From Paracoccaceae bacterium (GTDB taxonomy: Bacteria > Pseudomonadota > Alphaproteobacteria > Rhizobiales > Stappiaceae), in assembly GCA_002709505.1 (NCBI GenBank), contig PARB01000097.1, forward strand, positions 1-42,717: 42,717 nucleotides of DNA. The letters are read 5' to 3'. The position numbers were made by a program, and so were the translations under genes. Shown one piece after another: positions 7,831-42,700 of this stretch. Positions within the stretch are counted from its first letter, which is position 1, and the number at the start of each line of letters is the position of its first letter. The notes beneath the pieces are model-generated. The model ran no database searches and was not told where the DNA came from. It saw only the letters and a program-made list of their open reading frames with translations.

Positions 7831-7848
7831 GCAGGAAAGGAATTCCAT

Positions 7849-19692: not shown

Positions 19693-19707
19693 AGAAGAGA
19701 CACATTC

Positions 19708-20914: not shown

Positions 20915-20938
20915 TGCGGCAAACCCTCGGAGATCTGC

Positions 20939-21430: not shown

Positions 21431-21473
21431 CCCGGCCGCGGACCTTCGCACTGTTCATGAAAGGGAGGACATC

Positions 21474-22571: not shown

Positions 22572-23125
22572 CCGACAGGTCGAAGGCGTCTTCCGAAGGG
22601 GCTCGTCCCCCTTCGGGAGAAGCGCCCACACCCGGTTTCACGCCGCTCGTGGTCGGCATGGACGCCCTCGGCGCACTCATCGTGCTGGGCATGATGGTGG
22701 TCGTCAACATCGACGTCTTCGGCCGGTGGCTCTTTGATGCGCCTTTGGCCGGAACGCTCGAACTGACCGAGATGGCGATTGTCGCGGTGGTCTATCTCCA
22801 GCTGGCCCACACCATTCGCGTCAAGCGGTTGACCCGGTCCGACGCCTTCCTCGATCTGCTGGCAAAGTTGCGGGCACGCACCGCAAATCTGGTCATGCGC
22901 ATGGGGTTCAACCTGATCGGCGCGGTGATCCTCGCCATCATCGCCTATGGCCAGTATCCCCGGCTGATCGATGCCTGGAGTCGTGGCTACTACAAGGGCA
23001 ACGTCGGGATCTTCACCGCGCCGACCTGGCCGTTGGAGGGGATCATGCTTCTCGGTGCGGCGGCTGCCTCCGTTCAATTCGTGATCCTGGCTTATCGGAA
23101 CCTCCGACAGCTTCGCGACCGCTAG
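22568..23125 (+). CDS. dctQ: TRAP small permease DctQ (first set)
   Basis: Encodes 185 residues from ATG 22568, overlapping the dctP stop. After a Pro/Ser-rich cytoplasmic N-terminus, four hydrophobic helices follow (about 27-48, 62-82, 110-132 and 150-175), with the DctQ-type NIDVFGRWLFDAPLAGTLELTEMAI segment. It is the small membrane subunit that pairs with DctM. A 49-bp gap separates it from dctM. Confidence 0.88.
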   Translation: MTDRSKASSEGARPPSGEAPTPGFTPLVVGMDALGALIVLGMMVVVNIDVFGRWLFDAPLAGTLELTEMAIVAVVYLQLAHTIRVKRLTRSDAFLDLLAKLRARTANLVMRMGFNLIGAVILAIIAYGQYPRLIDAWSRGYYKGNVGIFTAPTWPLEGIMLLGAAAASVQFVILAYRNLRQLRDR

Positions 23126-23174
23126 GGAAGGCCGGTTCCAATGTGGATTCCAGGAATGCTTCAGGAGGTGCCAG

Positions 23175-24518
23175 GTGTCTGGGCTTGAAATCGGCATGCT
23201 CTCGGTCGGGGTCATCGTTGTTCTGATCTACTCCGGAATGCACGTGGGCATCGCACTCAGTCTCGTCTCGTTTCTGTCGGTCGCGATCCAGAAGGACAGC
23301 CTGTCACTGGCGATGAAACTGCTCACGCTGGCGGCGGCGGACGGGATCGCCGACCAGACCTTCGCGGTCATTCCGCTTTTCGTTCTCATGGGTCTGATCA
23401 TGAGCGCGTCCGATGTCGGCCGGGACGCCTATGACGTGGGGGACTATTTCCTGAGACCGATCCGCGGCGGCCTCGGGCTTGCGACCGTGGGGTCCAACGC
23501 GGTGTTTGCGGCGGTCACGGGCGTGTCGATCGCCTCCGCCGCGGTCTTCACCCGCGTTGCCGTGCCGGAGATGCTGCGCCTTGGATACAGTCCGCGCTTC
23601 GCGGTTGGAACCGTGGCGGGCAGTTCGGTGCTCGGCATGCTGATCCCGCCCAGCATTCTTCTGATCATCTATGCAATCCTCACCGAGCAGTCGATCGGCA
23701 TGATGTTCTTTGCCGGGATCGGCCCGGGGATCCTGCTGTCGAGCGTTTTCTGCATCGGCATCATCGCGATGGCGTATCTGGTGCCGGGCTTCGTCTACGA
23801 CAGGACGGGCCGGTTCGCGGATCAGGAGGCGATCGCGCAGAGCGATCCGCGCCGCGAGCATTCGCTTGGCCAGATCCTGGTCAAGTTCCTGCCGCTTCTC
23901 GGGCTTGTCGCGATCGTGCTCGGCGGCATCTACGGGGGGATCTTCACCCCGACCGAGGCGGGCGCCGTCGGCGCGCTGTGCGCTCTGGTCCTGGCGGTCG
24001 CCCGCAAAAAGCTGTGCTGGAAGTCCTTCTGGAAGGTTCTGCTCGAGACCGGACACATCACCGCGTCCATCTGCTTCCTGATCATCGCGGCGACCATGTA
24101 CAGCCGCTCGCTGGCGCTCGCCGGCGTCCCGATGGAAATCGGCGGCCTGGTTCGCACCGCCACGGACCAGTTCCTGCTGGTGGTGCTGATCTATGTGCTC
24201 GTCGTTCTGCTGCTGGGCACGATCATCGATTCCGTGTCGATCATTCTCATCATGGTGCCGTTGTTCCTGCCGGTGATGCAGGGGTTCGAGGCGGATCCGA
24301 TCTGGTTCGGGATCCTGACGGTGATTGCTGTCGAGGTCGGACTTCTGACGCCCCCGCTCGGGATCGCCTGTTTCGTCATCAAGGGATGTCTGGAAGATCC
24401 GCGGATAACCCTGGGCGACGTGTTCCTCGGGGCCGCGCCGTTTGCCCTGATGATGATATTCGTGCTTGCCCTGCTGACGGCATGGCCGCATCTGGTCTAC
24501 ATCAATCTGTGGATTTGA
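23175..24518 (+). CDS. dctM: TRAP large permease DctM (first set)
   Basis: Encodes 447 residues from GTG 23175 (AGGAGGTG at 23164-23171). About twelve helices are present, with the DctM hallmarks AVTGVSIASAAVFTRVAVPEM, GMLIPPSILLIIYAILTEQSIG (ion/substrate hairpin) and FTPTEAGAVGALCALVLA. It drives sodium-coupled import of the DctP-bound acid. The substrate is unknown; the DctP and neighbouring genes do not identify it. Confidence 0.92.
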   Translation: MSGLEIGMLSVGVIVVLIYSGMHVGIALSLVSFLSVAIQKDSLSLAMKLLTLAAADGIADQTFAVIPLFVLMGLIMSASDVGRDAYDVGDYFLRPIRGGLGLATVGSNAVFAAVTGVSIASAAVFTRVAVPEMLRLGYSPRFAVGTVAGSSVLGMLIPPSILLIIYAILTEQSIGMMFFAGIGPGILLSSVFCIGIIAMAYLVPGFVYDRTGRFADQEAIAQSDPRREHSLGQILVKFLPLLGLVAIVLGGIYGGIFTPTEAGAVGALCALVLAVARKKLCWKSFWKVLLETGHITASICFLIIAATMYSRSLALAGVPMEIGGLVRTATDQFLLVVLIYVLVVLLLGTIIDSVSIILIMVPLFLPVMQGFEADPIWFGILTVIAVEVGLLTPPLGIACFVIKGCLEDPRITLGDVFLGAAPFALMMIFVLALLTAWPHLVYINLWI

Positions 24519-24557
24519 TCCGACACGAGGCCCCTCTAACCGGACGTGGTGTGGGAC

Positions 24558-25613
24558 ATGAGCAGTTCCAAGCGCTCCAAGACCGCGCCGAGAGCCGGGC
24601 GGGTCAAGCTTGCCGACGTCGCAACGGCCTCCGGGGTCCATTATTCGACCGTGTCGCGCGTCTTGCGTCCAGGCTCCAAGGGCCGGATCTCGGATGCGGT
24701 CGCCGAGCATGTCAGGGCCGTGGCGCGCGAACTGGGCTATCAGCCGAATTCCGTCGCGGCGAGCATGCGCACCAACTCCACATATTCGATCGGGCTGATC
24801 GTCCACGACATGAGCGACCCGGTCTATCCGCCGATCCTGACCGGGATCGAGGAGGTCCTGTCGCCGCAGGGCTTCGCTGTCCTGGTCGGCAACACGGGCT
24901 ACGACCTCGCAGTTGAAATGGATGTCGTGAACCGGATGGCGTCGCGTCTCGTCGATGGCATCTTCCTTGCCACCACCAGGCTGGAAGACCCCATCGTGGA
25001 GCGGTGTCAGGATCTGGACATTCCGCTTGTTTCCGTGCTTCGGCAGACGCAAAGCCGCGACACGCCTGCCGTCATCAACGACTGTCTCGGCGGGATGCAG
25101 GCGCTGACCCGACAGGTTCTCGCCTGGGGGCACAGGGATATTGCGGTCATCCTTGCCCCGCAGAATCTCTCGACCGGCCGGGAACGCTGGCGCGGCATTT
25201 CCGACGTCCTGAGCGAGAACGGGATGACACTGCCTGAACACCGGATTGTCCATGTCGAGCATATGTCGGTCGACGAGGGCGAGCGGGCCGCACGAACGCT
25301 TCTTGCCGACGGGGCCCCGCCCGAGGCGATCATCTGCGTGAACGACCTTGTCGCCATCGGGGCGATCCGGGCCTGCCGCGCGGCCGGCCTGAATGTGCCT
25401 CGCGATATCGGGATCTCGGGCTACAACGACATTCCGCTGGTCGACATGATCGACCCGCCGTTGACGACGGTGCGAATGAACCTGAAGGAGATCGGCAGGA
25501 CGGCCGCCGAGTTGATGCTTGCCCATATGGCACCTGACGCGCCGCCCTCCCGCACGGTGCGGATCGACGCCGAGCTTGTCCTGCGCGCCTCCTTGCGCAA
25601 CCTGAACGGCTGA
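24558..25613 (+). CDS. LacI-family transcriptional regulator
   Basis: Encodes 351 residues from ATG 24558; GTG 24546 would add four. The N-terminal helix-turn-helix with hinge helix is VKLADVATASGVHYSTVSRVL (about 16-36) and ELGYQPNSVAASMRT (about 55-70), and a periplasmic-binding-like ligand domain follows (about 75-345: IGLIVHDMSDPVYPPILTGIEE, ICVNDLVAIGAIRA, ISGYNDIPLVDMIDPPLTTV). It lies 39 bp after dctM and is probably cotranscribed. Its predicted operator is the palindrome at 20895-20914, giving an autoregulated uptake operon. The ligand is likely the imported compound or its first catabolite rather than a classical sugar. Confidence 0.9.
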   Translation: MSSSKRSKTAPRAGRVKLADVATASGVHYSTVSRVLRPGSKGRISDAVAEHVRAVARELGYQPNSVAASMRTNSTYSIGLIVHDMSDPVYPPILTGIEEVLSPQGFAVLVGNTGYDLAVEMDVVNRMASRLVDGIFLATTRLEDPIVERCQDLDIPLVSVLRQTQSRDTPAVINDCLGGMQALTRQVLAWGHRDIAVILAPQNLSTGRERWRGISDVLSENGMTLPEHRIVHVEHMSVDEGERAARTLLADGAPPEAIICVNDLVAIGAIRACRAAGLNVPRDIGISGYNDIPLVDMIDPPLTTVRMNLKEIGRTAAELMLAHMAPDAPPSRTVRIDAELVLRASLRNLNG

Positions 25614-29661: not shown

Positions 29662-31158
29662 TCAGGTTTGCGGGTTTGCCCGTCTTCTTGCGGAAAAGAC
29701 CGCGCCTGCGGCAATGCCCAGCCAGATGAGGATCGTGACACCTCCAAGCACCGCCGCGATCGGGCGGTCGAAGAACCCCCAGAGATCGCCGCGCGCGATG
29801 GTCATGGAGGTGGTGAAGCTCTGCTCGACGAGGGGCCCGAGGACAATGCCCAGAATGATCGGGGCGATGGCGAAGTCGCGCGATTGCAGGATGTAGGCGA
29901 TCACGCCGAGGCCGAGCATGATGCCCACGCCGAAGAGCGTGTTGTTGATCGAATAGGACCCGACCACGCAAAACAGCAGGATCGCGGCGTTCAGGTAGCT
30001 GCGCGGCACCTTGAACAGATTGCGGGCAACTCTGGCGGCCAGATAGCCGAAGGGGATCAGAAGCAGGTTCGCCAGAACGAACACCAGCAGCACGGCATAG
30101 AAGTTCTGCGGATTGCTCGTCAGAAGCTGCGGCCCCGGCTCCAGGCCCTTCATGAACAACACGCCGACCGCGATCGCGGTGACGGCATCGCCCGGAATGC
30201 CGAAGACCATCGCCGGGATCCAGGATGACGACAGCGCGGCATTGTTGGACGCGCCCGCCTCGACAAGCCCTTCCGGGTGGCCGGTGCCGAATTTCTCCGG
30301 CTCCTTCGAGGTGCGTTTGGCCAGCGAATAGGTGATCCAGGCGCCGAGGTCGCCGCCGATGCCGGGCAGGGCGCCGATGACCGAGCCCACCGCCGCCCCG
30401 CGAAACAGGTTGATCCGGTAGCGGCTGAGGGCCGCCCCGACACCGGCGAAAGGGTTTGCGACCTCGACCTGGGGAACGGACGGGCGTCCTTCGCGGCCGT
30501 TGCGCAGGATTTCGGCAAGCGCGAACATCCCGATCATTGCCGGAATGAAGCTGATGCCGCCGGACAGCTCGGCAATGCCGAAGGTGAAGCGGGGCTGGCC
30601 CATCAGCGGATCGAGGCCGATCTGGGCGATGAACAGTCCAAGGAGCAGCGACAGCATCCCCTTCGCCACCCCGCCATGCGACACGACGACGGCGCAGCTC
30701 AGGCCGAGAACGGACAGCCAGAAATACTCGAAGCTGGAGAAATTCAGCGCGAAGCGGGCGAGAAACGGAGCGGCGACAAGGAGCGTCGCGAAGCCGAACA
30801 GCCCGCCGAAGGCCGCCGCGCAGATGCTGATCCCGATGGCAAACCCCGCCCGGCCCTTGCGGGTCAGTCCGTAGGCGTCCTCGACATAGGCCGCCGAGGC
30901 CGGGGTTCCCGGGATCCGCAGCAATGCGCCGGGGATATCCCCGGCCGTGATCGCCATTGCCGTACAGGAGATGATCGCTGCAATCGCCGGAACCGGGTCC
31001 ATGTAGAAGGTGATGGGAACCAGCAGTGCCGCCGCCATCGTCGCGGTTAGACCCGGCATGGCTCCGACGAAGAGGCCGAAGGCGGAAGCGAGGACAATGA
31101 CGGTCAGGGTCTCGGCGTTGAAGACCAGTCCTGCCGCGAGTGCGAGTGCGTCCATCAT
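29662..31158 (-). CDS. tctA: TTT large membrane subunit TctA (third set)
   Basis: Encodes 498 residues from the first of two adjacent ATGs (31156-31158), one base from the tctB stop. The hallmark loops are GAMPGLTATMAAALLVPITF (about 28-47) and GALPGIGGDLGAWITYSLAKRTSKEPE (about 263-290), then VFGIPGDAVTAIAVG. About twelve helices. It is the last gene of a tctCBA operon that shares a regulatory motif with the DHDPS-family and FAD-oxidase genes. Confidence 0.92.
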   Translation of the reverse strand: MMDALALAAGLVFNAETLTVIVLASAFGLFVGAMPGLTATMAAALLVPITFYMDPVPAIAAIISCTAMAITAGDIPGALLRIPGTPASAAYVEDAYGLTRKGRAGFAIGISICAAAFGGLFGFATLLVAAPFLARFALNFSSFEYFWLSVLGLSCAVVVSHGGVAKGMLSLLLGLFIAQIGLDPLMGQPRFTFGIAELSGGISFIPAMIGMFALAEILRNGREGRPSVPQVEVANPFAGVGAALSRYRINLFRGAAVGSVIGALPGIGGDLGAWITYSLAKRTSKEPEKFGTGHPEGLVEAGASNNAALSSSWIPAMVFGIPGDAVTAIAVGVLFMKGLEPGPQLLTSNPQNFYAVLLVFVLANLLLIPFGYLAARVARNLFKVPRSYLNAAILLFCVVGSYSINNTLFGVGIMLGLGVIAYILQSRDFAIAPIILGIVLGPLVEQSFTTSMTIARGDLWGFFDRPIAAVLGGVTILIWLGIAAGAVFSARRRANPQT

Positions 31159-31159
31159 C

Positions 31160-31630
31160 TCAAAACGGCCCTCTCGGCAGGGGAACGCGCAGGCCGTGGG
31201 TGAAGACGAGGTAGACGGCCACGGTGGCCAGAAGCGCAAAGACGACGGCGCCCGGCCAGCGGCCGCCGCCAAGGCGCACGAGGACAGCTGAAAACACAAA
31301 GCCGCTCGCCAGGAAGCCGGTGAGGGGCATGGCGAAGATCAGCGCCAGAAGCGCGCCGATCACCGCCATTGCATACAGCGTCGGAAGGGCCGGTCCGCCG
31401 GCGTCCCGGACAATCTGCGAAGCGGGCAGGCGGCGCATGTTGCGCGCCGCCGCCAGGGCCATCACCAGGCCGAAAAGGATCATTCCCGTCCCGGTGATCT
31501 TTGGAAAAAGGCTTGAGCTCACCGCCATGCCGGGGATCGTGCGGAAGCCGCTGGCCACGATGAAGATCGCCGTTCCCAGGCCGGCGAATGCCAGTCCGAT
31601 CACGAGGTCCGCAACATGTCCAATGCGCAT
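31160..31630 (-). CDS. tctB: TTT small membrane subunit TctB (third set)
   Basis: Encodes 156 residues from the ATG at 31628-31630 with AAAGGTG about eight bases upstream; the frame is open far upstream as a shadow of tctC. Four hydrophobic segments (about 6-28, 43-62, 82-105 and 112-150) and the SSSLFPKITGTGM motif near residue 37 match TctB. It lies 44 bp after tctC. Confidence 0.87.
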   Translation of the reverse strand: MRIGHVADLVIGLAFAGLGTAIFIVASGFRTIPGMAVSSSLFPKITGTGMILFGLVMALAAARNMRRLPASQIVRDAGGPALPTLYAMAVIGALLALIFAMPLTGFLASGFVFSAVLVRLGGGRWPGAVVFALLATVAVYLVFTHGLRVPLPRGPF

Positions 31631-31674
31631 GGGGGCACCTTTTTCAGTCGTCCGGGAAACGCGAAGCCGATCCG

Positions 31675-32640
31675 CTACTGACCGAGGCCGGCGGCGGAAA
31701 TCGCTGCTCCGAACGCCTCGCCGCGACGTGCCAGATACTCGGTGAAGTCCTCTCCACCTGCCCAGACGACGCCGTAGTTGAGCGCCCCCATCTTGTCGCG
31801 GAAGGCGTCGCTGGCGACGATCTTCTCGAGTTCGGTGGTCAGGATGGCGGTGATGTCGTCCGGCATGCCGGCCGGTCCGCCCACGCCGCGCCAGCCCGCA
31901 ATCGAGAATTCGATTCCGAGCGCTTCGGTCACGGGCGGCACGTCGGGATGCTTGGGGTTGGGCTCGCTGCCAAGCGTCGCCAGCGCGCGGATCTCGCCCG
32001 CGTCCATCAGGGCCTGCGCTTCGGGAAACTGCACGACGGCGACATCGATCGCTCCCGAGGCCAGTAGCTGAAGGGCCGGCGCGCCACCCTCGGCCGGCAC
32101 CCAGCTGCTCGCCGCTCCGTCGAGACCGAGCCCCTGGACCATCGATACCCACGACAGGTGGTTCACACCGCCGAAATTGGCCCCGCTCGCCTGGATGGCT
32201 TGCGGATCGGCCTTCACCGCATCGGCAAGGTCGGCGATGGTCTGAAAGTCGGAATCGGCTTTCACGAAAATCGCGGACGGGTCGGAATTGTAGAGACCGA
32301 TGAGGGAATAGTCGGCGAAATTGAGCTTGGCGGAGCCGACGGCCTCGTACATCGAGAGTTCTGTTGTGAGAATGCCGATCGTGTATCCGTCGGGGTCCGC
32401 ATCCTTGATGGTCGTGTGACCGACGATGCCGCCGCCGCCGGTGCGATTGACGACATTGAACGGCTGGCCGAGCCGTTCCTCCAGCATCGTCGCGATGATG
32501 CGTCCGGTGGCGTCGGTGCCGCCGCCCGCGGACCAGGGCACGATCACCGTCACCGGTCGGTCCGGGAAGTCGGCAAGTGCCGTGGCGGACGCGGCTGCGA
32601 GGCCGAAAACGGCCAGTGCGGTCGTGAGTACGGTTCTCAT
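31675..32640 (-). CDS. tctC: TTT-family substrate-binding protein TctC (third set)
   Basis: Encodes 321 residues with a Sec signal peptide (cleavage about ALA-DFP). The core motifs are FPDRPVTVIVPWSAGGGTDATGRIIA, LGQPFNVVNRTGGGGIVGH. Its lid loop (QASGANFGGVNHLSW) differs from the first two copies, again pointing to a different ligand. Transcription starts in the 327-bp divergent region shared with the DHDPS-family gene, where the motif CCCATATTACGGAATTA (32712-32728) lies 71 bp upstream of the start. Confidence 0.92.
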   Translation of the reverse strand: MRTVLTTALAVFGLAAASATALADFPDRPVTVIVPWSAGGGTDATGRIIATMLEERLGQPFNVVNRTGGGGIVGHTTIKDADPDGYTIGILTTELSMYEAVGSAKLNFADYSLIGLYNSDPSAIFVKADSDFQTIADLADAVKADPQAIQASGANFGGVNHLSWVSMVQGLGLDGAASSWVPAEGGAPALQLLASGAIDVAVVQFPEAQALMDAGEIRALATLGSEPNPKHPDVPPVTEALGIEFSIAGWRGVGGPAGMPDDITAILTTELEKIVASDAFRDKMGALNYGVVWAGGEDFTEYLARRGEAFGAAISAAGLGQ

Positions 32641-32967
32641 GGGTCTCCTCCAAGCTCCCTGTTCGGCGATCCTCCATCGCCGGTGGTATGGGTTTTACCT
32701 CCATGCAAAATCCCATATTACGGAATTAGCAGCCTTGGCGGTTCGATGCAACCGTGATGTCCGATCCGCTGTTACAATGCTGTTCTAAAGAGATTATTGA
32801 TTTTTTATCTGACGTTCTGGCCACGTGGGTCGCTGACGATTGACAGGCAGCGCATCCAGGTATACGAAGATTTCAGGTCTTTTTTCCCGTATTGTGGAAT
32901 AAGATGTAAGAGCGGGGCGGAGGCAAGGGGTTTGCCGGGCGCTTTTCGCTGTAACCTGGAGGGACGG
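32641..32967. promoter_or_regulatory. Divergent control region of tctC and the DHDPS-family gene
   Basis: No gene. Two copies of a shared motif are present: CCCATATTACGGAATTA (32712-32728) toward tctC and CCCGTATTGTGGAATAA (32886-32902) toward the DHDPS-family gene, identical at 13 of 17 positions with three of the four differences transitions. A promoter for the plus-strand gene is visible as TTGACA (32840-32845) with TATACG (32861-32866, spacer 15) or TACGAA (spacer 17). The right-hand motif would lie just after the start of transcription, a repressor-like position. Confidence 0.55.
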
Positions 32968-33900
32968 ATGGTCAACAAAATCGCTGCATCGGTACGGGAA
33001 AAGCTGACGGGCATCATGCCGCCCTTGTCCATGCCGTTCGATGAGACCGGTGCGCTGGTGCCCGAAGCGTTGGGTCCGCAGATCGACTTCATGGTGCGCG
33101 CCGGGGTGAGCGGCGTCGTTGCGGGCGGTTCGACCGGCGAAGGGCATACGCTCTCGGATCAGGAATTCGCGACGGCCATGCGGACGGCGCATGATGCGCT
33201 GGACGGGCGCGCCAGTTTCGTCGCGGGGCTGATCGTGAATTCGACGCGTGCGGCTGTCGAACGCATGCGCATGCTGAACGGGCTCAAGATCGATGCGCTG
33301 CAGGTGACGCCGGCGCATTATCTCTTCAAGTCCTCGTTCGACGCGACCGTGGCGCATTTTCGCGCCATCTACGAGGAAACCGGCATCCCGATCCTGATCT
33401 ACAACGTCATTCCGTGGAACTATCTCAGCGTCGACGCGATGTTGCGGATCATGGACGAGGTTCCCGGCGTCGTCGGCATGAAGCAAAGCTCGGGCGACCT
33501 GAAATCCGTGTCCGATCTGCTGTTGAAGGCCAAGCCGGAAAATATTGTCACCAGCGGCATCGACGCCCTGCTGTATTCCGCCTTTGCAATGGGCGCGCAT
33601 GGGGCGATCAGTGCGTTGACCTGCGCCCTGCCGAGCGTGACAGTACAGCTCTATGACGCGGTTCAGCGCGGCGACCACGCCGCGGCGCTCGATATGCACT
33701 TCAAGCTGAACGAACTGTGGAACGTGATGCCGCATGACAATCTGCCGGCCTGCGTGAAGTATGTTCAGCACCGGCAGGGTCTGGCGCTCTATGGCCCGCG
33801 CGCACCGATGGATCCGGTGTCGCCGGCCCAGAAGGCCGCCATCGATGCGGTTCTCGAGCCTTTGCTCGAGATCGCCAGGAAGGCGGCGCCGGCCGCGTGA
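32968..33900 (+). CDS. Dihydrodipicolinate synthase-family lyase/aldolase
   Basis: Encodes 310 residues from ATG 32968 (GGAGGGA at 32957-32963). A TIM barrel with the family motifs: GGSTGEGHTL (53-62), catalytic Tyr145 in LIYNVIPWN and Schiff-base Lys172 in VVGMKQSSGD. The GSTGE loop and the neighbours argue against lysine-pathway DapA. The family also contains 2-keto-3-deoxy-sugar-acid aldolases, 5-dehydro-4-deoxyglucarate dehydratase (KdgD) and hydroxyproline-pathway deaminases; KdgD's usual GGTGEFFSL is not matched. Monocistronic, between third tctCBA and IclR, with the shared upstream motif. Probably cleaves or dehydrates a 2-keto acid derived from the imported compound. Confidence 0.87.
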   Translation: MVNKIAASVREKLTGIMPPLSMPFDETGALVPEALGPQIDFMVRAGVSGVVAGGSTGEGHTLSDQEFATAMRTAHDALDGRASFVAGLIVNSTRAAVERMRMLNGLKIDALQVTPAHYLFKSSFDATVAHFRAIYEETGIPILIYNVIPWNYLSVDAMLRIMDEVPGVVGMKQSSGDLKSVSDLLLKAKPENIVTSGIDALLYSAFAMGAHGAISALTCALPSVTVQLYDAVQRGDHAAALDMHFKLNELWNVMPHDNLPACVKYVQHRQGLALYGPRAPMDPVSPAQKAAIDAVLEPLLEIARKAAPAA

Positions 33901-33906
33901 TCGCGC

Positions 33907-33935
33907 AAAGCGCCGGCCTGTCAGGCCGGCGCTTT
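33907..33935. terminator. Bidirectional terminator between DHDPS-family and IclR genes
   Basis: Thirteen-bp perfect arms AAAGCGCCGGCCT (33907-33919) and AGGCCGGCGCTTT (33923-33935) enclose a GTC loop. The stem ends in A/T on both sides, and TTTGCCTTTT follows on the plus strand. The IclR stop codon (33921-33923) lies in the loop, so the last IclR codons are part of the hairpin. Confidence 0.85.
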
Positions 33936-34739
33936 GCCTTTTCTGCCGGAAGGTAGCGGATTGGTCTTTGCGACGTGGCCGAGTTTCGCCGAAAGGGTGT
34001 CGGCATGGAGCTTCACGGTCTTTGCGATCTCATCGACGGCGCCGGGGGTGAGCTCCCAGGCCGTGCCGCTGACGCTGATTGCGGCAAAGGCCTTGCCGGC
34101 TTCGTTGAAGATCGGAACCGCAACGCAGCGAATGCCGATGTTGTGTTCCTGGTCGTCGATGGAATAGCCGCGCTCGGCGATCGTCGCGAGTTCGCGATCA
34201 AACGCCTCGCGGTCGACGATCGTGGATGGGGTGAACTGGATGATCTCACCCGCGAACACGCGGTCGATCGCTTCGGGCGGCTGATAGGCGAGGATCGCCT
34301 TTCCGACGCCGGTGCAATGCGCCGGAGCGCGCTCCATCAGGTTCAGCGAGGTGGAAAGTTCCCTTGCCGAGCCGATCTTGCGCACGACCAGAACGCCCTC
34401 GCCATCGAACACCGCAAGGTGAACCGACATGCGGGTGATGCGGTGGAGCTCCTCCATCGCGTCGACGGAGATGCGGTGGATGTCCATGCTCCCGAGAACC
34501 GTGCTGCCAAGGCTGAAGAGCTTCAGTCCAAGCCGGTAGCCGCCACGGCGCTTGTCCTGTTCCAGCAGGTCGGCCGAGCGCATGGACGACAGCAGTCGAT
34601 GTGCCGTGCTCGGAGGGATGTCGAGGCGGCTTGCGATCTCGCTGACGGAGAGGACGTCATCGCGGATCGAGAAGCAGTCAAGAACGCGCATCACCTTGTG
34701 AAGCGATTTGATGCCTTCTTCGGAGGTCGGTTTCTTCAT
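33921..34739 (-). CDS. IclR-family transcriptional regulator
   Basis: Encodes 272 residues from the ATG at 34737-34739; the frame is open upstream but the extension is not conserved in appearance. The winged helix (about 8-70: SLHKVMRVLDCFSIRDDVLSVSEIASRLDIPPSTAHRLLSSM) is followed by the GAF-like IclR effector domain (about 85-260) with the typical GVGKAILAY, YSIDDQEHNIGIRCVAVPIF and AISVSG patterns. It is divergent from the FAD-oxidase/TRAP/DhaKL operon and convergent with the DHDPS-family gene. GTGGAA/TTCCAC half-sites, close to the known IclR-family consensus TGGAAAT, occur in all three probable target regions. Confidence 0.9.
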   Translation of the reverse strand: MKKPTSEEGIKSLHKVMRVLDCFSIRDDVLSVSEIASRLDIPPSTAHRLLSSMRSADLLEQDKRRGGYRLGLKLFSLGSTVLGSMDIHRISVDAMEELHRITRMSVHLAVFDGEGVLVVRKIGSARELSTSLNLMERAPAHCTGVGKAILAYQPPEAIDRVFAGEIIQFTPSTIVDREAFDRELATIAERGYSIDDQEHNIGIRCVAVPIFNEAGKAFAAISVSGTAWELTPGAVDEIAKTVKLHADTLSAKLGHVAKTNPLPSGRKGKAPA

Positions 34740-35155
34740 GTCGGATCGTTCGTGACTTTGGCTCGCTTCCCGGATTCGCGCCGCGTGGCGCTGAATCCTT
34801 GGGTGGGCGCGGCTGATTGCACCATTCTGGTCGTTCTTCCCTAGCGTCTCGCGCAAAACCTAGTTTCGCGCGGTGGTCTTGTAAATCGGCGGCGCGGGTT
34901 TCCCCCTCCCGGCGGAGCACGTCCCGGAGGGGCGGACGCGTCGATCATGTTTCAATTTCCACTATATGGGCTAGATTGTCCACCTCTCTCAGAAATATAC
35001 GCATTTTCCACCTGATCATGCGGGTTTTCCTTGCAAAAAGAGATCATAAATGATTTTCTGGCCCGCATTGTGGAATATGGTGGTTGGTGCGTCGCAGTCG
35101 ACAGTGCCGGTCCGCCTGTCCGCCGGATCATTCGTGCGGCAATCGGGAGAGGCAA
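34740..35155. promoter_or_regulatory. Divergent control region of iclR and the oxidase operon
   Basis: Non-coding. Three direct copies of ATTnTCCAC-like half-sites occur on the plus strand: ATTTCCAC (34955-34962), ATTGTCCAC (34975-34983) and ATTTTCCAC (35003-35011). The inverted counterpart GTGGAAT lies in the shared motif CCCGCATTGTGGAATAT (35062-35078), 15 of 17 identical to the motif before the DHDPS-family gene. The motif ends about 78 bp before the oxidase ATG. The segment 34945-35060 is more AT-rich than its surroundings. Confidence 0.55.
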
Positions 35156-36556
35156 ATGCAGGCGGATGCGCCGTACACGGGGGAGGCGTTCGAGCGCTTC
35201 TGCGGGGGGGTCGGGCAGGTCACGGGCGTGGCGCTCGAGCGGCGTCCGTCCGTCTGTGTCCAGTATTCCAGCGGCGAGGGAATGCCCTTCGCGCGTATTC
35301 CGGATGCCGTGGTGTCTCCCCGTTCCACCGACGGTGTGGCTGCCGTGATGTCGCTGGCTGCCGCCGCCGGTGTGCCGGTGACCTGTCGCGGCGCCGGGAC
35401 CTCGCTTGAGGGGCAGGTTGTGCCGGTCGCCGGCGGTGTCGTTCTCGACCTGTCGCAAATGAACCGGATCGTGGATGTGTCCTGCGAGGCTCTCGACTGC
35501 ATCGTCGAGGCCGGCGTGACGCGCAAGAGCCTCAATGCCCATTTGCGCAACACCGGGCTGTTCTTTCCGATCGATCCCGGGGCCGATGCCACCATCGGCG
35601 GCATGGTTTCCACCCGCGCGTCCGGCACCCAGGCCGTGCGCTACGGGACGATGAAGGACAATGTCATCGCCGTGACGGTGGTCCTGCCGGACGGTCGTGT
35701 GATCCGCACCGGCAGCCGGGCCCGCAAGTCGGCGACGGGCTACGATCTCACCAGCCTGTTTGTCGGGGCGGAGGGAACGCTTGGCGTCGTGACCGAAGTC
35801 ACGCTGAAACTGGCGCCGCGGCCGGCGTTCCAGCTGTCCGGGATCTGCCAGATCGACGACCTTCCCCAAGCCCTGGCGGTGATCTCCCAGGCCCTGATGC
35901 ACGGGCTTGAGCCGTCGCGGATCGAATTGCTCGACGCCGTGCAAACCGGCGCCTGTGCCCGCTACTCCCGGCTCGACGCGCTGCGGGAAACCAACACGAT
36001 CATGTTCGAGTTCGCCGGCGACGAGGCGGACGTGCGCCGCAGGGCAGGGGAGTTTGCCGCGATCTGCCGGGAGGAGGCAGGGGTCTCGCCGGTCTATTTC
36101 GAAACACCGGAGATCCACTCGCTTTACTGGGGTGCGCGCGAGCGCTGCTATGAGGCGGCGCTGGCGCTCGCGCCGGGCAAGAAGAACATGGGGACCGACG
36201 CCTGTGTTCCGCTCGACCGTCTTGCCGAATGCATCCTGGCAACCAAGCGGTTTATCGGCGAGGCGGGCCTGACGGCGCCGCTCGTCGGCCACGTCGGCGA
36301 TGGCAATTTCCACCTCGGCATTCTGTTCGATCCGAACGACGCGGAAGAGACCGCCCGCGCCGAGGCGTTGTGCGAGCGTGTGTCGATGCTGGCCATCGAA
36401 CTGGACGGCGCCTGCTCGGGCGAGCACGGCATCGGTTTGCACAAGCGACATCTGCTGGAGCGCCAGCACGGCGACGCGCTCGCGGTCATGCGGGCGGTCA
36501 AGGCCGCGCTCGATCCGGCAGGCCTGATGAACCCGGGAAAGATCTTTCCGGGGTGA
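35156..36556 (+). CDS. FAD-linked 2-hydroxyacid oxidase/dehydrogenase (GlcD/D-lactate dehydrogenase type)
   Basis: Encodes 466 residues from ATG 35156 (GGGAGAGG at 35145-35152). The N-terminal PCMH FAD-binding domain (about 48-225) shows SPRSTDGVAAVMSLAAAAGVPVTCRGAGTSLEG and PGADATIGGMVSTRASGTQAVRYGTMKDNV. The C-terminal FAD-oxidase domain has GHVGDGNFHLGILFDP (metal His pair) and CSGEHGIGLHKRHLLE. Enzymes of this type oxidise D-2-hydroxyacids to 2-keto acids and feed electrons to quinone or cytochrome. No signal peptide. First gene of a six- to seven-gene operon with TRAP, DhaKL and an aldehyde dehydrogenase; the likely substrate is the 2-hydroxyacid brought in by the TRAP. Confidence 0.9.
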   Translation: MQADAPYTGEAFERFCGGVGQVTGVALERRPSVCVQYSSGEGMPFARIPDAVVSPRSTDGVAAVMSLAAAAGVPVTCRGAGTSLEGQVVPVAGGVVLDLSQMNRIVDVSCEALDCIVEAGVTRKSLNAHLRNTGLFFPIDPGADATIGGMVSTRASGTQAVRYGTMKDNVIAVTVVLPDGRVIRTGSRARKSATGYDLTSLFVGAEGTLGVVTEVTLKLAPRPAFQLSGICQIDDLPQALAVISQALMHGLEPSRIELLDAVQTGACARYSRLDALRETNTIMFEFAGDEADVRRRAGEFAAICREEAGVSPVYFETPEIHSLYWGARERCYEAALALAPGKKNMGTDACVPLDRLAECILATKRFIGEAGLTAPLVGHVGDGNFHLGILFDPNDAEETARAEALCERVSMLAIELDGACSGEHGIGLHKRHLLERQHGDALAVMRAVKAALDPAGLMNPGKIFPG

Positions 36557-36616: not shown

Positions 36617-37648
36617 ATGAAAATGAGAAAGTTCGCAACCGGTGCCGCCCTGGCGCTTGTCATGGGGCTTGCGGCCCCTCAGGCCTCTGCCGAACAGACC
36701 GTGCGCGCGGCCTGGGCCGATCCCAACGATGCCCAGGTCGCGCCGACCTCGGCCTTCATGCAGGTCTTCGAGGCCTCGCTGGAGCGCTTTTCGGGCGGTG
36801 AGTTCGACGTGGAGCTGTTCCCCAACGGTCAGCTCGGCGACCAGGCCGCGACCGTCCAGCAGGTTCGCCGCGGTGACATCCAGTTCGCCAATGTGGTGTC
36901 CGGCGTCGTCGCATCGCTGCTCTACGAGAAGCTGAGCGTTCTCGACATGCCCTATCTCTTCGCCTCGCGCGCGCATTTCCGCGCGGCGATGGATGCCGAC
37001 ACGCCCTTCATTTCCAAGCTTCTCGACGATGTTGCCGAAGAGACCGGCGTGCGGATCCTGTTCCTGCAGCCCTATGGCTTCCGCAACATGACGACGAAGT
37101 CGACCCTGGTGAAGGGACCGGCGGACCTCGACGGCCTGAAGATGCGGACCATGAGCGTCGTGCCGCACCAGAAGATGATGGAATCGCTTGGCGCGACGCC
37201 GGTGCCGATCCCCTTCCTCGAGCTCTACACCAGCCTGCAGACCGGTGTGGTCGACGGCCAGGAAAACACCCCGGCCAATATCGTCATCCAGAACTTCGAC
37301 CAGGTGCAGGGCTATATGAGCGAAACCCAGCACGTGATGACGACCGCGGCCTTCATCACCAACGAGGCGTGGTTCCAGGGCCTTTCGGATGAGGAGCGCA
37401 CGGCGATCCTTCATGCCGGCGAGGAGGCGATGCTCGCCTACGACGGAACCGGCGCGGTGCAGGACATGCTGTCGGTCGCCAGGATCCGCGACAAGGGCGT
37501 GGAGGTCTATACGCCGTCTCCCGAGGAAGTGGCGATGTTCCGCAAGGCGGTTGCCGGTCCGACGCGGGCCTGGGCGGAAGAGAACTTCGGCGAGGCGTTC
37601 GTGAGCGACTTCTTCGCGCATATGGCCGGGTTCGAAGGCAAGTTCTAG
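36617..37648 (+). CDS. dctP: TRAP transporter substrate-binding protein DctP (second set)
   Basis: Encodes 343 residues with a Sec signal peptide (to about ASA-EQ). Classic DctP features are present: LFPNGQLGDQAATVQQVRRGDIQFANV, the GLKMRTMSVVPHQKMMESLGATPVPIPFLELYTSLQTGVVDGQENTP block, which carries the conserved Arg (in KMRTM) that grips the carboxylate, and a C-terminal WAEENFG. It is followed 68 bp later by dctQ, with a tetraloop hairpin in between. Confidence 0.93.
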   Translation: MKMRKFATGAALALVMGLAAPQASAEQTVRAAWADPNDAQVAPTSAFMQVFEASLERFSGGEFDVELFPNGQLGDQAATVQQVRRGDIQFANVVSGVVASLLYEKLSVLDMPYLFASRAHFRAAMDADTPFISKLLDDVAEETGVRILFLQPYGFRNMTTKSTLVKGPADLDGLKMRTMSVVPHQKMMESLGATPVPIPFLELYTSLQTGVVDGQENTPANIVIQNFDQVQGYMSETQHVMTTAAFITNEAWFQGLSDEERTAILHAGEEAMLAYDGTGAVQDMLSVARIRDKGVEVYTPSPEEVAMFRKAVAGPTRAWAEENFGEAFVSDFFAHMAGFEGKF

Positions 37649-37671
37649 CCGCGTTCCACTGTGGTGTTCAA

Positions 37672-37695
37672 CCGGGGGCGGGCAACCGCCTCCGG
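37672..37695 (+). promoter_or_regulatory. GNRA-tetraloop hairpin between dctP and dctQ
   Basis: CCGGGGGCGG (37672-37681) pairs with CCGCCTCCGG (37686-37695), ten pairs including one G-U, closed by the loop GCAA, a stable GNRA tetraloop. It lies 23 bases after the dctP stop and 21 before dctQ. Such a structure can stabilise the dctP portion of the mRNA or limit read-through to the permease genes. Confidence 0.6.
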
Positions 37696-37716
37696 TCCTG
37701 CACGCAAGGATTTCCG

Positions 37717-38247
37717 ATGTTTTCCAAACGTTTGAAAACGGTCTGCCGCCACGCCGACCAGGCGTTGCAGCTCGCCACGGGCGCGATGGTGGCGGCGTCG
37801 CTGCTGGTGATGTTCGCTTGCGTGCTCTACCTCGTGGCCGGACGGTATTTCTTCGGCCTGTCTGTGTTCTGGGGCGAGGAAGTTGCGCGCTACGCCATGA
37901 TCTACATGGCGTTTCTCGGCGCCTCCACCGCGCTGCGCGCCAATCAGCATCCGCGCCTGTCCCTGCTGTTCGAGATCCTGCCCGGCGTCATTCAGGCGGT
38001 CGCGCGCTTGGCGATCAACCTCGGGCTCGTCCTGGTCTCGATGATCTTCATTGTCTACGGCTACGAGTTCTTCACCTTCGACGGCATCATGCGCACCCCG
38101 GCCTTGCGCATCCGCTACTACTGGGTCTTCGCAATCATCCCCGTCGGCGGCGTGCTTTTGCTTCTGCATGTCCTGGCCGCGCAGGTCTTTCCGAGCCGTT
38201 TCACCATCATGGGCGGTGACGACCTTCCGACGGAGGCGAACCGATGA
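37717..38247 (+). CDS. dctQ: TRAP small permease DctQ (second set)
   Basis: Encodes 176 residues with four hydrophobic helices (about 22-45, 60-75, 95-120 and 137-160). The AGRYFFGLSVFWGEEVARYAMIYMAFLGASTALR segment is the conserved DctQ core. The stop overlaps the dctM ATG (ATGA). The start codon region contains a CAAACGTTTG palindrome that I regard as coding coincidence. Confidence 0.9.
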   Translation: MFSKRLKTVCRHADQALQLATGAMVAASLLVMFACVLYLVAGRYFFGLSVFWGEEVARYAMIYMAFLGASTALRANQHPRLSLLFEILPGVIQAVARLAINLGLVLVSMIFIVYGYEFFTFDGIMRTPALRIRYYWVFAIIPVGGVLLLLHVLAAQVFPSRFTIMGGDDLPTEANR

Positions 38248-39530
38248 CCCCCTTCGCCGCCATGCTGCTGTGTTTCGTCGCGCTCGTCGCGCTGAGCTTT
38301 CCGCTCGCCTTCTCGATGCTTCTTGCCTGCGCGCTCTATCTCGTCATGTCGGGCCAGTCCCTGACGTTGCTCATTCAGCAGCTGTTCAGCGGGCTCGACA
38401 TCTTCACCATCATGGCGATCCCCTTCTTCATGCTGGCCGGTGACCTGATGGTGGCCTCCGGCACGGCCGACAGGCTCCTGCGTTTCGCCCAGCTTCTGGT
38501 CGGGCGGCTCAAGGGCGGGACCGGCTATGTGAATATCGTTGCCAGCATGCTCTTCGGCGGCTGTTCCGGCTCGGCCATCGCCGATATCGCAGCGCTTGGA
38601 CGCACTCAGGTGCGCATGATGGAAAAGAGCGGTTTCACGCGCGAGTTCAGCGCCGCGCTCACCATCGCCACCTCGATCAAGGGGGCGATCATTCCGCCCT
38701 CGATCCCGCTCGTGCTGGTGGGGGCCGTCTCCGGCACCTCGATCGGTGGCATGCTGATCGGCGGGCTGGTTCCCGGACTGCTTGTCGGGATCACGCTTGC
38801 CGTCGCGGTGTTCTGGACGACCCGTCACACAGTGCTCGCCAAGAGCGAACCGCTTAGCAGGCGTGAAAAACTGAAAATCGTGGTGGAATCCGTTCCGTTC
38901 CTGATGATGCCGGTCATCATCCTGGGCGGCATCCTGTCCGGTGTCTTTACCCCGACAGAAGCGTCCGCCGCCGCGGTCGCCTGGGGGTTCGGCCTGTGGC
39001 TGATCGAGCGCAAGGGCCGGCCCGATCCGCGCGAACTCTTCCTGATCCTGCTGCGCAGCGGCACGCTGTCGGGCGCGGTGCTGCTGCTGACCGGCGCGGC
39101 AAACGTCTTTTCATGGATCCTTGCCACCGAGCAGGTGCCGGCGCAGATCGCCTCCTTCGTGTTTTCTCTCACGGACGAGCCGGCTCTCATTCTCCTGATC
39201 ATCATGGTGTTCCTGCTCCTGTGGGGAACGGTGATGGACATGTTGCCGGCGATCTTCATCGTCATCCCGATCCTGCTGCCGCTCGCCACCGAGATCGGGA
39301 TCGATCCGGTCCATTTCGGGGTGATCTGCACCTTTAACCTCGTGATCGGCCTGATAACGCCGCCCTACGGAACCGCACTGTTCACCGGGTCGATCGTGCT
39401 CGGCATGCCGATCGAGCGGATCGTGCGGAACATTTTCCCGTTCTTCTGCGCAGCCGTCTTCGTGCTGCTCATCATCACCTATGTGCCGGAAACGGTTCTC
39501 GCCCTGCCGCGCGCCCTTGGCCTGCTGTGA
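38244..39530 (+). CDS. dctM: TRAP large permease DctM (second set)
   Basis: Encodes 428 residues with about twelve helices. DctM motifs: MAIPFFMLAGDLMVASGTADRLLRFA, ASMLFGGCSGSAIADIAALG, IPPSIPLVLVGAVSGTSIGGML (first hairpin), GIFTPTE-like SGVFTPTEASAAAVAWG, and GLITPPYGTALFTGSIV (second hairpin). It is the sodium-coupled importer for the DctP ligand and closely related to typical C4-dicarboxylate/sugar-acid DctMs. The next gene is dhaK-like, 36 bp downstream. Confidence 0.93.
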   Translation: MTPFAAMLLCFVALVALSFPLAFSMLLACALYLVMSGQSLTLLIQQLFSGLDIFTIMAIPFFMLAGDLMVASGTADRLLRFAQLLVGRLKGGTGYVNIVASMLFGGCSGSAIADIAALGRTQVRMMEKSGFTREFSAALTIATSIKGAIIPPSIPLVLVGAVSGTSIGGMLIGGLVPGLLVGITLAVAVFWTTRHTVLAKSEPLSRREKLKIVVESVPFLMMPVIILGGILSGVFTPTEASAAAVAWGFGLWLIERKGRPDPRELFLILLRSGTLSGAVLLLTGAANVFSWILATEQVPAQIASFVFSLTDEPALILLIIMVFLLLWGTVMDMLPAIFIVIPILLPLATEIGIDPVHFGVICTFNLVIGLITPPYGTALFTGSIVLGMPIERIVRNIFPFFCAAVFVLLIITYVPETVLALPRALGLL

Positions 39531-39566: not shown

Positions 39567-40565
39567 ATGACGAAAATCATCAACGCCCCCGGGACGTACG
39601 TGGACGAAAGCCTCGAGGGTCTGTGTCTGGCGCATCCCTCGCTCAAGCTGGTTGGCGACGAATGCCGCGTGGTTGTCCGCAGCCGCCCGAAGTCCGCCGG
39701 CAAGGTCGGGATTGCCTCGGGCGGAGGCTTTGGCCATCTGCCGCTTTTCTGCGGATATGTCGGGCCGGGCCTGCTCGATGCCTGTGCGGTCGGCAACGTC
39801 TTCGAGGGGCCGACCGTCGGCACGTCGCTGGACAGCATCCTGAACGCCGACACCGGGGCCGGGGTGCTCTGCCTCATCGGCAATTACGGCGGCGACCGCA
39901 TGAATTTCGAAATGGCGGCTTCGATGGCCGAGGACGACGGCATCCGCAGCGAACTCGTCCTCGGGACCGACGATGTCGCGAGCGCGACGGAGGAGGAAAA
40001 GGACAAGCGCCGGGGCGTTGCCGGGCTGCTGTTCGCCTATAAATGCGCCGGTGCGGCCGCGGAAGAGGGGCGCGATCTTGCCGAAGTGGCGCGGATCGCG
40101 CGCAAGGCCGTCGACCGAACGCGCACGATCGGCTTTGCGCTGGCCCCCTGCCTGATGCCGGGGCGCGACGCGCCGGCTTTCGAGGTCGCTCCGGGAACGG
40201 TTGAATTCGGCATGGGCATCCACGGCGAGCCCGGCCTGTGGCGCAAGCCGTTTTCCTCGGCGGAGGCGCTGGCTGAGGAGATGGTCGACAAGCTGCTCGC
40301 CGAAAAGGTCTCGGAGACCTCGTCGAGGGTCGCCCTCCTGGTCAACAGCCTGGGCGCATCGCCCTATGAGGAGCTGTTCATTCTCCATCGCAGCGTCCGC
40401 GCCCATCTTGCCGACCACGGGATCGAGATCGCGCGGGTCATGGTCGGGCCGTTCGTGACCTCGATGGAAATGGCTGGGGCCTCGGTGAGCCTTTGCTTCC
40501 TCGATGAGGAGCTTGAAACGATGCTCGCCGCGCCCGCGCAGTGCCCGTTCTGGGCGGTATCCTGA
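39567..40565 (+). CDS. DhaK-like dihydroxyacetone-type kinase, substrate-binding subunit
   Basis: Encodes 332 residues, full length for DhaK. Key elements are SGGGFGHLP (51-59), with H57 as the substrate His, GNYGGDRMNFEM with the catalytic Asp110, and GMGIHGEPG with H219, which forms the covalent hemiaminal with the ketose carbonyl. The canonical GHEP is GHLP here. DhaK binds dihydroxyacetone or other short ketoses (erythrulose in some homologues). GAGTT(A) precedes the ATG. Paired with a divergent DhaL and no DhaM, so an ATP-dependent kinase is expected. The substrate is probably not plain dihydroxyacetone given the TRAP/oxidase context. Confidence 0.9.
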   Translation: MTKIINAPGTYVDESLEGLCLAHPSLKLVGDECRVVVRSRPKSAGKVGIASGGGFGHLPLFCGYVGPGLLDACAVGNVFEGPTVGTSLDSILNADTGAGVLCLIGNYGGDRMNFEMAASMAEDDGIRSELVLGTDDVASATEEEKDKRRGVAGLLFAYKCAGAAAEEGRDLAEVARIARKAVDRTRTIGFALAPCLMPGRDAPAFEVAPGTVEFGMGIHGEPGLWRKPFSSAEALAEEMVDKLLAEKVSETSSRVALLVNSLGASPYEELFILHRSVRAHLADHGIEIARVMVGPFVTSMEMAGASVSLCFLDEELETMLAAPAQCPFWAVS

Positions 40566-40566
40566 C

Positions 40567-41202
40567 ATGGCGATTTCCGCAAAAGACATCAGTGCCGCGA
40601 TTGCGCGGATCCAGGCCGGGATCGAGCCGGTCGAACGCCGTCTCAACGCGGCGGATTCCCGCCTTGGCGACGGCGATACCGGAACCATGCTGGCACGTTT
40701 GATCGGGGTCATGAGCAGCCAGTCGCCGGATCCGTCCGCGAGTGTGGGAGCCTATCTCTCGCAACTGGCGAAGGCGGCCGCGCGCTCCACCGGGTCAAGC
40801 TTCGGCACGCTGATCATCGCCGCCCTGATGGCGACGGGCCGGGAGACGAAGGAGCGCGACAGCATCGCCGTCGACGACGTCGCGGATCTTCTCGGCGTGG
40901 CCCGTCGGGAAATGACCGCGCGCTCGGGAACCGGGGAAGGGTCGAAGACCGTGATCGACAGTCTGGCGCGGCTCGAGGCGGAGACCCGTGGCGCCGGCTC
41001 GCGCGCCGACCTGGCGCAGCGGGCGCTGGCCGCCGTCGATGCGGCACTGGACGACTTTCGCGACCTGCCGTGCCGCGTCGGCCGGGCCCGCATTCATGAA
41101 GCCAGCTCGATCGGTCATGACGATCCCGGAATGCTGGCCGTGGCCCTCCTCGTGCGGGCAGCCGCAGGGCCGAAGGCGGCTGCCGATACGGACATCGAAT
41201 GA
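40567..41202 (+). CDS. DhaL-like nucleotide-binding kinase subunit, divergent
   Basis: Encodes 211 residues starting 1 bp after the dhaK stop. The three Mg-binding aspartates are at D30, D35 and D37 (ADSRLGDGDTG), matching the DhaL pattern, but the following invariant His is Thr38. The glycine loop reads STGSSFGTL rather than GGASGPL, and the GDKTM loop reads EGSKTV. The C-terminal GRARIHEASSIGHDDPGM matches the DhaL consensus. It should still bind ATP/ADP with magnesium, but the nucleotide loops are atypical. No PTS DhaM is nearby, so ATP use is likely. Confidence 0.85.
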   Translation: MAISAKDISAAIARIQAGIEPVERRLNAADSRLGDGDTGTMLARLIGVMSSQSPDPSASVGAYLSQLAKAAARSTGSSFGTLIIAALMATGRETKERDSIAVDDVADLLGVARREMTARSGTGEGSKTVIDSLARLEAETRGAGSRADLAQRALAAVDAALDDFRDLPCRVGRARIHEASSIGHDDPGMLAVALLVRAAAGPKAAADTDIE

Positions 41203-41239
41203 TCCGGCGCACACGCTTAACCCCCGAGAGGATACCGAC

Positions 41240-42700
41240 ATGCACAAGCACCTGATAGCAGGTCGATGGAGCGACGGCCGTCGCCCGCTCGAAACCGCCA
41301 CCGCCGCCATCGATGCCGCCTGTGTCGCCGCCGAGGAGGCATTCTGGAGTTTTGGCTCTTCGACCCGGGCGGAGCGTGCGCGCTTTCTCGAGGCAATCGC
41401 CGATGAGATCGAGGCGAGGGGCGCAGAGATCACGCGCGTCGCGGTCGGTGAGACCGGATTGCCGGAGGCCCGGCTGGAGGGGGAACGGGGCCGCACCACC
41501 GGCCAGTTGCGCCTGTTCGCCCGAATGATTGAAGCGGGTGACCATCTCGACATTCGCGAGGACCCCGCGTTGCCGGACCGCCAGCCTGCTCCGCGTCCCC
41601 GCCTCAGTCTCGTCCAGCGGCCGATCGGTCCCGTGGCGGTCTTCGGCGCGTCGAATTTCCCGCTGGCGTTTTCCGTGGCCGGCGGCGACACCGCCTCGGC
41701 GCTTGCTGCCGGTTGCCCGGTGGTGGTGAAGGGTCATCCCGCGCATCCCGGCACCGGTGTGCTGGTGGCCGAAGCGATCCGCGCGGCGATCGAGGCGCGG
41801 GGATTTCATCCAGGCGTTTTCTCGCTCGTTCAGGACGGCACGCATGAAGCCGGGCAGGCCCTGGTAACCCACCCGCTCATTCGCGCTGTGGGCTTTACCG
41901 GGTCCCTTGCGGGAGGGCGGGCACTCTTCGATCTTTGCGCCACCCGGCCCGAACCCGTTCCCTTCTTCGGGGAACTGGGGAGCGTGAACCCGATGTTCCT
42001 GCTTCCCCATGCCGTTGCCGCGCGCGGCGCCGAGATCGCGGCCGGCTGGGCCGGCTCGCTGACGCTGGGCGTGGGGCAGTTCTGCACCAAGCCCGGGATC
42101 GCGGTCGTTGTTCGCGGATCGCACGCCGATGCCTTTGCGGCGGCCGCCGTCGCCGCGCTTTCCGAGACCGACAGGCAGGTGATGCTGACCGACGCGATCG
42201 CGCAAGGCTACCGGGCAGGCCGCGACCGTGTCGCGGGGAGCGCCGGTGTCGAGGCGATGCTTTCGTCGCCCTGCGCGGATCGCTTCGCAGCACCATCTCT
42301 TTATCGCACCACCGGCAAGACCTGGCTCGCGACCGAAGAGCTCGGAGAGGAGGTGTTCGGTCCTCTCGGCTTGATCGTCGAAGTGGAAGACATGGCGGAG
42401 ATGCGTCGGGTCGCCGAAAGCCTGAAGGGGCAACTGACCTGCACGCTGCACGTCGAGCCTGCCGACACGGACACCGCGCGCATGCTTCTGCCGGTGCTGG
42501 AGCGCAAGGCCGGTCGCGTGCTCTCCAACGGGTTTCCGACCGGAGTGGAGGTCTGCGACGCGATGGTCCACGGAGGCCCCTATCCCGCCTCCACGAATTT
42601 CGGCCACACGTCGGTCGGGACCCTTGCCATCCGCCGGTGGCTCCGGCCCGTCTGCTATCAAAACATGCCCGATACGCTTCTCCCGCCGGATCTGGCCTGA
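41240..42700 (+). CDS. NADP-type aldehyde dehydrogenase (2,5-dioxovalerate dehydrogenase-like)
   Basis: Encodes 486 residues. The set GETGLPEARLEGERGRTTGQLRLFA (split motif, about 70-94), VFGASNFPLAFSVAGGDTASALAAGCPVVVKGHPAHPGT, catalytic Glu245 in GELGSVNP and Cys282 in GQFCTKPG, and PSLYRTTG later is diagnostic of the alpha-ketoglutaric-semialdehyde dehydrogenase branch used in pentose, uronate and hydroxyproline catabolism. The N-terminus is short: the usual segment with NPATG between the first strand and AxAAxxAF is missing (only SDGRRPLETATAAID remains). Last gene in the operon; it oxidises a semialdehyde product of the pathway. Confidence 0.88.
   Translation: MHKHLIAGRWSDGRRPLETATAAIDAACVAAEEAFWSFGSSTRAERARFLEAIADEIEARGAEITRVAVGETGLPEARLEGERGRTTGQLRLFARMIEAGDHLDIREDPALPDRQPAPRPRLSLVQRPIGPVAVFGASNFPLAFSVAGGDTASALAAGCPVVVKGHPAHPGTGVLVAEAIRAAIEARGFHPGVFSLVQDGTHEAGQALVTHPLIRAVGFTGSLAGGRALFDLCATRPEPVPFFGELGSVNPMFLLPHAVAARGAEIAAGWAGSLTLGVGQFCTKPGIAVVVRGSHADAFAAAAVAALSETDRQVMLTDAIAQGYRAGRDRVAGSAGVEAMLSSPCADRFAAPSLYRTTGKTWLATEELGEEVFGPLGLIVEVEDMAEMRRVAESLKGQLTCTLHVEPADTDTARMLLPVLERKAGRVLSNGFPTGVEVCDAMVHGGPYPASTNFGHTSVGTLAIRRWLRPVCYQNMPDTLLPPDLA

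Follow-up and report, generated by a model that had tools for sequence, protein, structure and literature searches.

Four copies of a 15-bp palindrome as predicted operators of an IclR-family regulator near TTT and TRAP importer genes

The gene cluster and its repeated element

The stretch of DNA analysed here (the window; 42,717 nucleotides) is the entire contig C97 of a 4.1-Mb draft genome (G000), which is 85.4% complete. Domain profile matches identified the gene tctC for a TTT-type binding protein (31675..32640, minus strand), followed leftwards by tctB (about 31160-31660) and tctA (ORF 29662-31299), as well as a TRAP importer encoded by dctP, dctQ and dctM (36617..39530, plus strand). Between them lie a gene for a DHDPS-family lyase (32968..33900, plus strand), which scores below the NCBIfam cut-offs of the dapA, nanA and kdgD models, the gene of an IclR-family regulator of 272 amino acids (33921..34739, minus strand) and a FAD oxidase gene (35156..36556, plus strand) with the domains FAD_binding_4 and FAD-oxidase_C, which is glcD-like and stays under the glcD cut-off. 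A terminator-like hairpin of 15 pairs (33905..33937) was found between the convergent DHDPS and iclR genes. The TRAP genes are followed by dhaK, dhaL and an aldehyde dehydrogenase gene (39567..42700, plus strand; starts of the latter two uncertain), presumably the end of the FAD oxidase unit. In the related locus L029, the aldehyde dehydrogenase end of the cluster is followed by an ORF on the opposite strand. Searches against solved structures found relatives of DctP, the DHDPS protein and IclR, which did not settle the substrate. A second cluster at 18523-25613 contains PrpF, a PEP-mutase/isocitrate-lyase-like gene, DctP, DctM and a LacI-type regulator.

The regulator, the presumed binder, carries both family domains above the Pfam cut-offs (HTH_IclR 52.3 bits, cut-off 22; IclR_C 141.5 bits, cut-off 24), in agreement with the IclR gene that the first-pass annotation had placed amid the repeats. 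Against the NCBIfam equivalogs BhcR, KdgR, AllR and IclR and the PcaR/PcaU subfamily it remained below cut-off throughout, BhcR being the best named model (191.3 bits, cut-off 350).

Three related 17-bp strings had been noticed at 32712, 32886 and 35062. They lie 71 bp from the start of tctC (at 32640, minus strand), 66 bp from that of the DHDPS-family gene (32968) and 78 bp from that of the FAD oxidase gene (35156), and identity to the middle copy is 13/17 and 15/17. Positions, distances and identities were all correct when recounted. The sharing is real, but the shared element is an imperfect palindrome of 15 bp (approximately TYCCRYA-W-TRYGGRA), which starts one base earlier and omits the last three bases. 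Furthermore, a fourth copy, the one nearest to iclR itself, had been missed. The predicted operators on the plus strand are A (TCCCATATTACGGAA, 32711..32725), B (TCCCGTATTGTGGAA, 32885..32899) and C (GCCCGCATTGTGGAA, 35061..35075), with their centres 78, 76 and 88 bp from the starts of tctC, the DHDPS-family gene and the FAD oxidase gene, respectively. Predicted operator D (34957..34971, minus strand; TTCCACTATATGGGC on the plus strand) lies between iclR and the FAD oxidase gene, with 225 bp between its centre and the iclR start and 192 bp to the start of the FAD oxidase gene. Exactly mirrored pairs number 5, 4, 4 and 3 out of 7 in A, B, C and D, and pairs keeping the purine/pyrimidine class 7, 7, 6 and 5. 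Site D is the weaker copy and the least symmetric of the four. Directly behind it, a TTGTCCA stretch (34972-34990) is kept in three Stappia loci; this might be a third box as described for some IclR sites.

Counterparts in related genomes and specificity of the motif

With the IclR protein as query (E ≤ 1e-50), matches were found in four of 87 family genomes, the window's own among them. The loci L029, L030 and L031 carry tctA, tctC, the DHDPS gene, iclR, the FAD oxidase gene, dctP, dctQ and dctM in the same order. The genes dhaK, dhaL and the aldehyde dehydrogenase gene were found in L029 and L030, too, and were not found within 19.9 kb of L031, which belongs to another genus and whose IclR is 79-81% identical to the others (paralogue matches were left out of the identity figures, six of the nine apparently having been translated in a wrong frame). 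A related-locus search additionally returned Stappia stellulata DSM 5886 (L007, IclR 90% identical), which is the same-genus genome G462, since 6 kb of L007 are contained in L030. By this relative, the window's genome would belong near Stappia. A Streptomyces locus (L008, IclR 30% identical) served as control only. The distribution of the iclR orthologue is patchy: within the genus, 3 of 14 genomes have it (own included), and elsewhere in the family a single genome from a different genus. This pattern suggests that the cluster was gained and lost, or transferred.

The first-pass annotation had proposed scanning orthologous loci with a matrix. Counterparts of A, B and C were present in all four syntenic loci (window, L029, L030 and L031). 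D had a counterpart in three of the four and none in L031. Taken alone, the column-by-column conservation of the sites is only moderate: each of A, B and C has 10 of 15 columns invariant over the four genomes, compared with 224 of 693 outside the sites, and equally conserved windows account for 45 of 317 in the A and B regions and 22 of 408 in the C region. We consider it more telling that the substitutions across the four loci mostly preserve the motif, A reading TCCCATAATATGGAA in L030 and B reading TTCCATAATGTGGGA in L031. D and C begin 104 bp apart in all three loci with D. From the start of A to that of B it is 174 bp in three loci and 163 bp in L031, shorter by roughly one turn of the helix. 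These distances are possibly under spacing constraint, as far as four loci can tell.

When each class of site was left out in turn from the Stappiaceae matrix, the left-out sites ranked 1 (A), 2 (B), 4 (C) and 4 (D), with scores of 15.6-20.7 compared to 10.3-11.3 for the best non-site. The pattern CCCGYATTGTGGAATAW with up to 3 mismatches matched only B and C in the window, A falling outside the pattern; shuffled windows gave a mean of 0.12 matches, and two matches occurred in none of 100 shuffles. The genome-wide test was a pattern search, with the 85.4% complete genome as sample. The 14-mer YCCRYAWTRYGGRA occurred exactly at four places in G000, namely A, B, C and one place inside an ORF of 635 amino acids (contig C48). 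With one mismatch it gave 75 hits in G000 against 37 for the reversed pattern, about twice as many. G440 has six exact matches, of which two are B and C of the locus and the other four lie within ORFs; G460 has no fewer than three beyond the locus, two in ORFs and one ambiguous. At least three exact matches beyond the locus in G462 (L035, L043, L047) appear intergenic by eye, so that the locus is not the only place with the motif in that genome. These G462 matches and the doubled number of one-mismatch hits in G000 weigh against the operator reading. At L035 (G462:C1, about 444750) in Stappia stellulata, CTGTTCCATATTGCGGAACAG between divergent ORFs forms, by eye, a longer palindrome of the GTT-11-AAC type, perhaps the operator of another IclR protein.

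An order-wide search with the IclR protein (E ≤ 1e-60, 397 genomes) yielded eight matches besides its own gene, 40-48% identical. Searches at E ≤ 1e-65 in a class-wide and a phylum-wide sample returned the own gene only (1 of 385 and 1 of 398). In every one of the eight distant loci, the retrieved DNA includes a DHDPS gene; TTT, TRAP, FAD oxidase or DhaK genes are present as well in several of them. The matrix derived from the four loci of Stappiaceae found sites in the tested intergenic DNA of seven of the eight, in several cases between iclR and the DHDPS gene. Scores at L018, L019, L020, L023 and L025 exceeded all 300 shuffles; those at L021 and L024 were reached by 2 and 1 of 300, respectively. 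No site was detected at L022, also an IclR-DHDPS locus, in the 401 bp upstream of dhaK that we had selected for testing (top score 6.1, reached by 64 of 300 shuffles), and the best score in all 16.5 kb of that locus was at most 11.2.

A palindromic motif was also learned from the eight distant loci only, without the window (consensus TCCCACAATGTGGGA). With this outside-trained motif A, B, C and D took ranks 1-4 of 42,703 window positions, scoring 21.2, 21.1, 15.4 and 13.5, respectively, the next position reaching 12.2. The motif likelihood was 61.2 compared to at most 35.5 in 20 dinucleotide-shuffled runs, in which no more than two of the top four window positions fell inside the two intergenic regions; the 150 restarts for the real input against 60 per shuffled input gave a slight advantage to the real input. 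A run without L022 returned the same top four as the run with all eight loci. In G000, G460 and G440, 12 IclR_C genes were found, three of them the orthologues, and the loci of ten other IclR genes (the nine non-orthologous ones and L008) scored at most 13.1.

Proposed mode of regulation

Promoter-like pairs were noticed by eye for two of the units. The tctC pair, TTGCAT-17-TAATTC (32723..32751, minus strand), overlaps the edge of A with its -10; by eye, its spacing is equal in all four syntenic loci, L031 reading TTGCCA and TAATCC. The pair of the DHDPS gene, TTGACA-15-TATACG (32840..32866, plus strand), has a short spacer and lies upstream of B. Its TTGACA is present in all four loci, and TATACG is replaced by GATAAC in L031 (by eye). 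A strict promoter scan reported no sigma-70-type site, neither of these pairs being included. The location of the FAD oxidase promoter is uncertain.

In the mechanism we propose, an IclR dimer would recognise the 15-bp near-palindrome. A would then control the TTT importer unit, B the DHDPS-family gene and C together with D the FAD oxidase-TRAP-DhaKL-aldehyde dehydrogenase unit. D would perhaps control iclR itself; it could serve iclR or strengthen C. As A extends into the putative tctC -10 and B lies just behind the putative DHDPS -10, bound IclR would block initiation, presumably until a metabolite derived from the imported compound frees it from the DNA. Such repression relieved by a metabolite, as reported for the IclR-like SL1344_3500 (PMC12445098), is favoured because the sites lie on or just behind the putative core promoter, and blocking of the promoter appears from the sequence to be the most likely mode. 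We infer binding by the IclR protein, the sign of regulation, the promoters, the inducer and the operon limits, and likewise, from the importers and enzymes, a sugar-acid-like substrate.

The sites, their counterparts in relatives, their fit to a published class of IclR motifs and their association with this IclR lineage are computed results. The joint IclR regulon postulated in the first-pass annotation is computationally well supported by all four syntenic loci, seven of eight distant loci and the published IclR-family consensus. We hold with good confidence that the four sites would be operators of the IclR protein encoded at 33921-34739, controlling the TTT, DHDPS and FAD oxidase units, most likely by repression. 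A mechanism of a known kind would probably switch the two uptake systems and several enzymes in concert.

That the local IclR protein acts on the same sites chiefly as an activator or in a dual manner, D for instance being an upstream activating site of the FAD oxidase unit, appears unlikely. The IclR family comprises repressors, activators and dual regulators (PMC8222616), and both the distal position of D, 192 bp from the FAD oxidase start, and its constant distance to C in the three loci with D would suit such a role, but the by-eye placement of A over the putative tctC -10 and of B just behind the putative DHDPS -10 argues against it. We regard it as quite improbable that the operators belong to a different regulator, be it a further protein of the IclR type or a member of another family, and that the neighbouring iclR is incidental. 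A motif of the published class is common to 43 orthologous groups (PMC8222616) and weak similar sites, up to 13.1, occur at some other IclR loci, but the motif accompanies this IclR lineage to seven of the eight distant loci, several of them holding it between iclR and the DHDPS gene, and the 3 other IclR_C genes of G000 (E ≤ 1e-10) have far weaker family scores. A chance resemblance of three strings picked by eye out of 42.7 kb can practically be dismissed: although the strings were selected after the fact and 13/17 matches to the consensus are common (45 positions in the window), shuffle, genome-wide, leave-one-out and outside-trained tests all contradict it, the motif learned without the window having already done so.

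With the four sites as operators of the local IclR protein, a motif caught by eye becomes a regulon that can be tested by way of its matrix and its four defined sites, and a motif spotted by reading proves verifiable by training on other genomes alone. The TTT importer and the TRAP importer would be tied to one pathway, so that the inducer of IclR would probably indicate what both importers carry and which reactions the enzymes catalyse. We give an even chance to the wider reading of a recurrent order-wide regulog, for which we found no name. In such a regulog, one IclR lineage and its operator would gate TTT and TRAP importers, a DHDPS-family lyase, a FAD oxidase and dihydroxyacetone-kinase-like genes for one acid substrate, and the operators would follow the genes through operon rearrangement.

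Comparison with known operators and regulators

Literature searches with idealised 15-mer versions of the operator, and for papers joining at least three of dihydroxyacetone kinase, TRAP transporter, IclR and erythronate, found no paper. Among the IclR group 1 motifs described by Suvorova and Gelfand (2021; PMC8222616), the subgroup WTT-11-AAW (WTTYCRYW3RYGRAAW) is, like A to D, an odd palindrome of equal length and box order. A, B, C and D match it at 16, 16, 14 and 15 of 17 positions, none perfectly; the second consensus T is a C in A, B and C, and C and D deviate further. Ten positions in the window reach 14/17 and four reach 15/17. One 15/17 match, TTTGCGCAATGCGGCAA (20906-20922), lies upstream of the second dctP-like gene (21474). 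The centres of sites in this subgroup lie mostly at -20 to -80 from the gene start (PMC8222616), a range that includes A (-78) and B (-76), with C (-88) just outside and D distal. Sugar and sugar-acid genes are underrepresented in the subgroup according to the same survey, which speaks mildly against the guess of a sugar-acid substrate.

The first-pass annotation had likened the half-sites to TGGAAAT. The half-site TGGAA is indeed shared, but TGGAAAT belongs to the E. coli IclR operator (TGGAAATNATTTCCA), whose boxes stand in the opposite order to those of A to D (PMC8222616). The best window match to this operator (12/15) is at 7833, away from A to D, and none of the seven best window matches to either TGGAAATNATTTCCA or the group 2 pattern TGRAACAN1-2TGTTYCA falls on A to D. 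An operator of the E. coli IclR type or of group 2 was rejected as the class of A to D, as these seven best matches per pattern fall elsewhere. The GenR motif of Corynebacterium glutamicum, ATTCC-N7(5)-GGAAT (PMC8222616), has equal outer boxes and an equal 7-bp distance. GenR regulates the use of 3-hydroxybenzoate and gentisate, and Table 1 of that survey names no DHDPS, TTT or TRAP genes for it.

An IclR-like regulator beside a gene for a DHDPS-family aldolase is likewise found in SL1344_3500 of Salmonella and XynR/YjhI of E. coli (PMC12445098). These systems contain transporters of the major facilitator type and a dehydratase, unlike the cluster in the window, and the wording 'binding site' does not occur in the text of PMC12445098 consulted. 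SL1344_3500 represses two neighbouring operons, one with the DHDPS-family aldolase (PMC12445098). The type of regulation predicted here is already well described.
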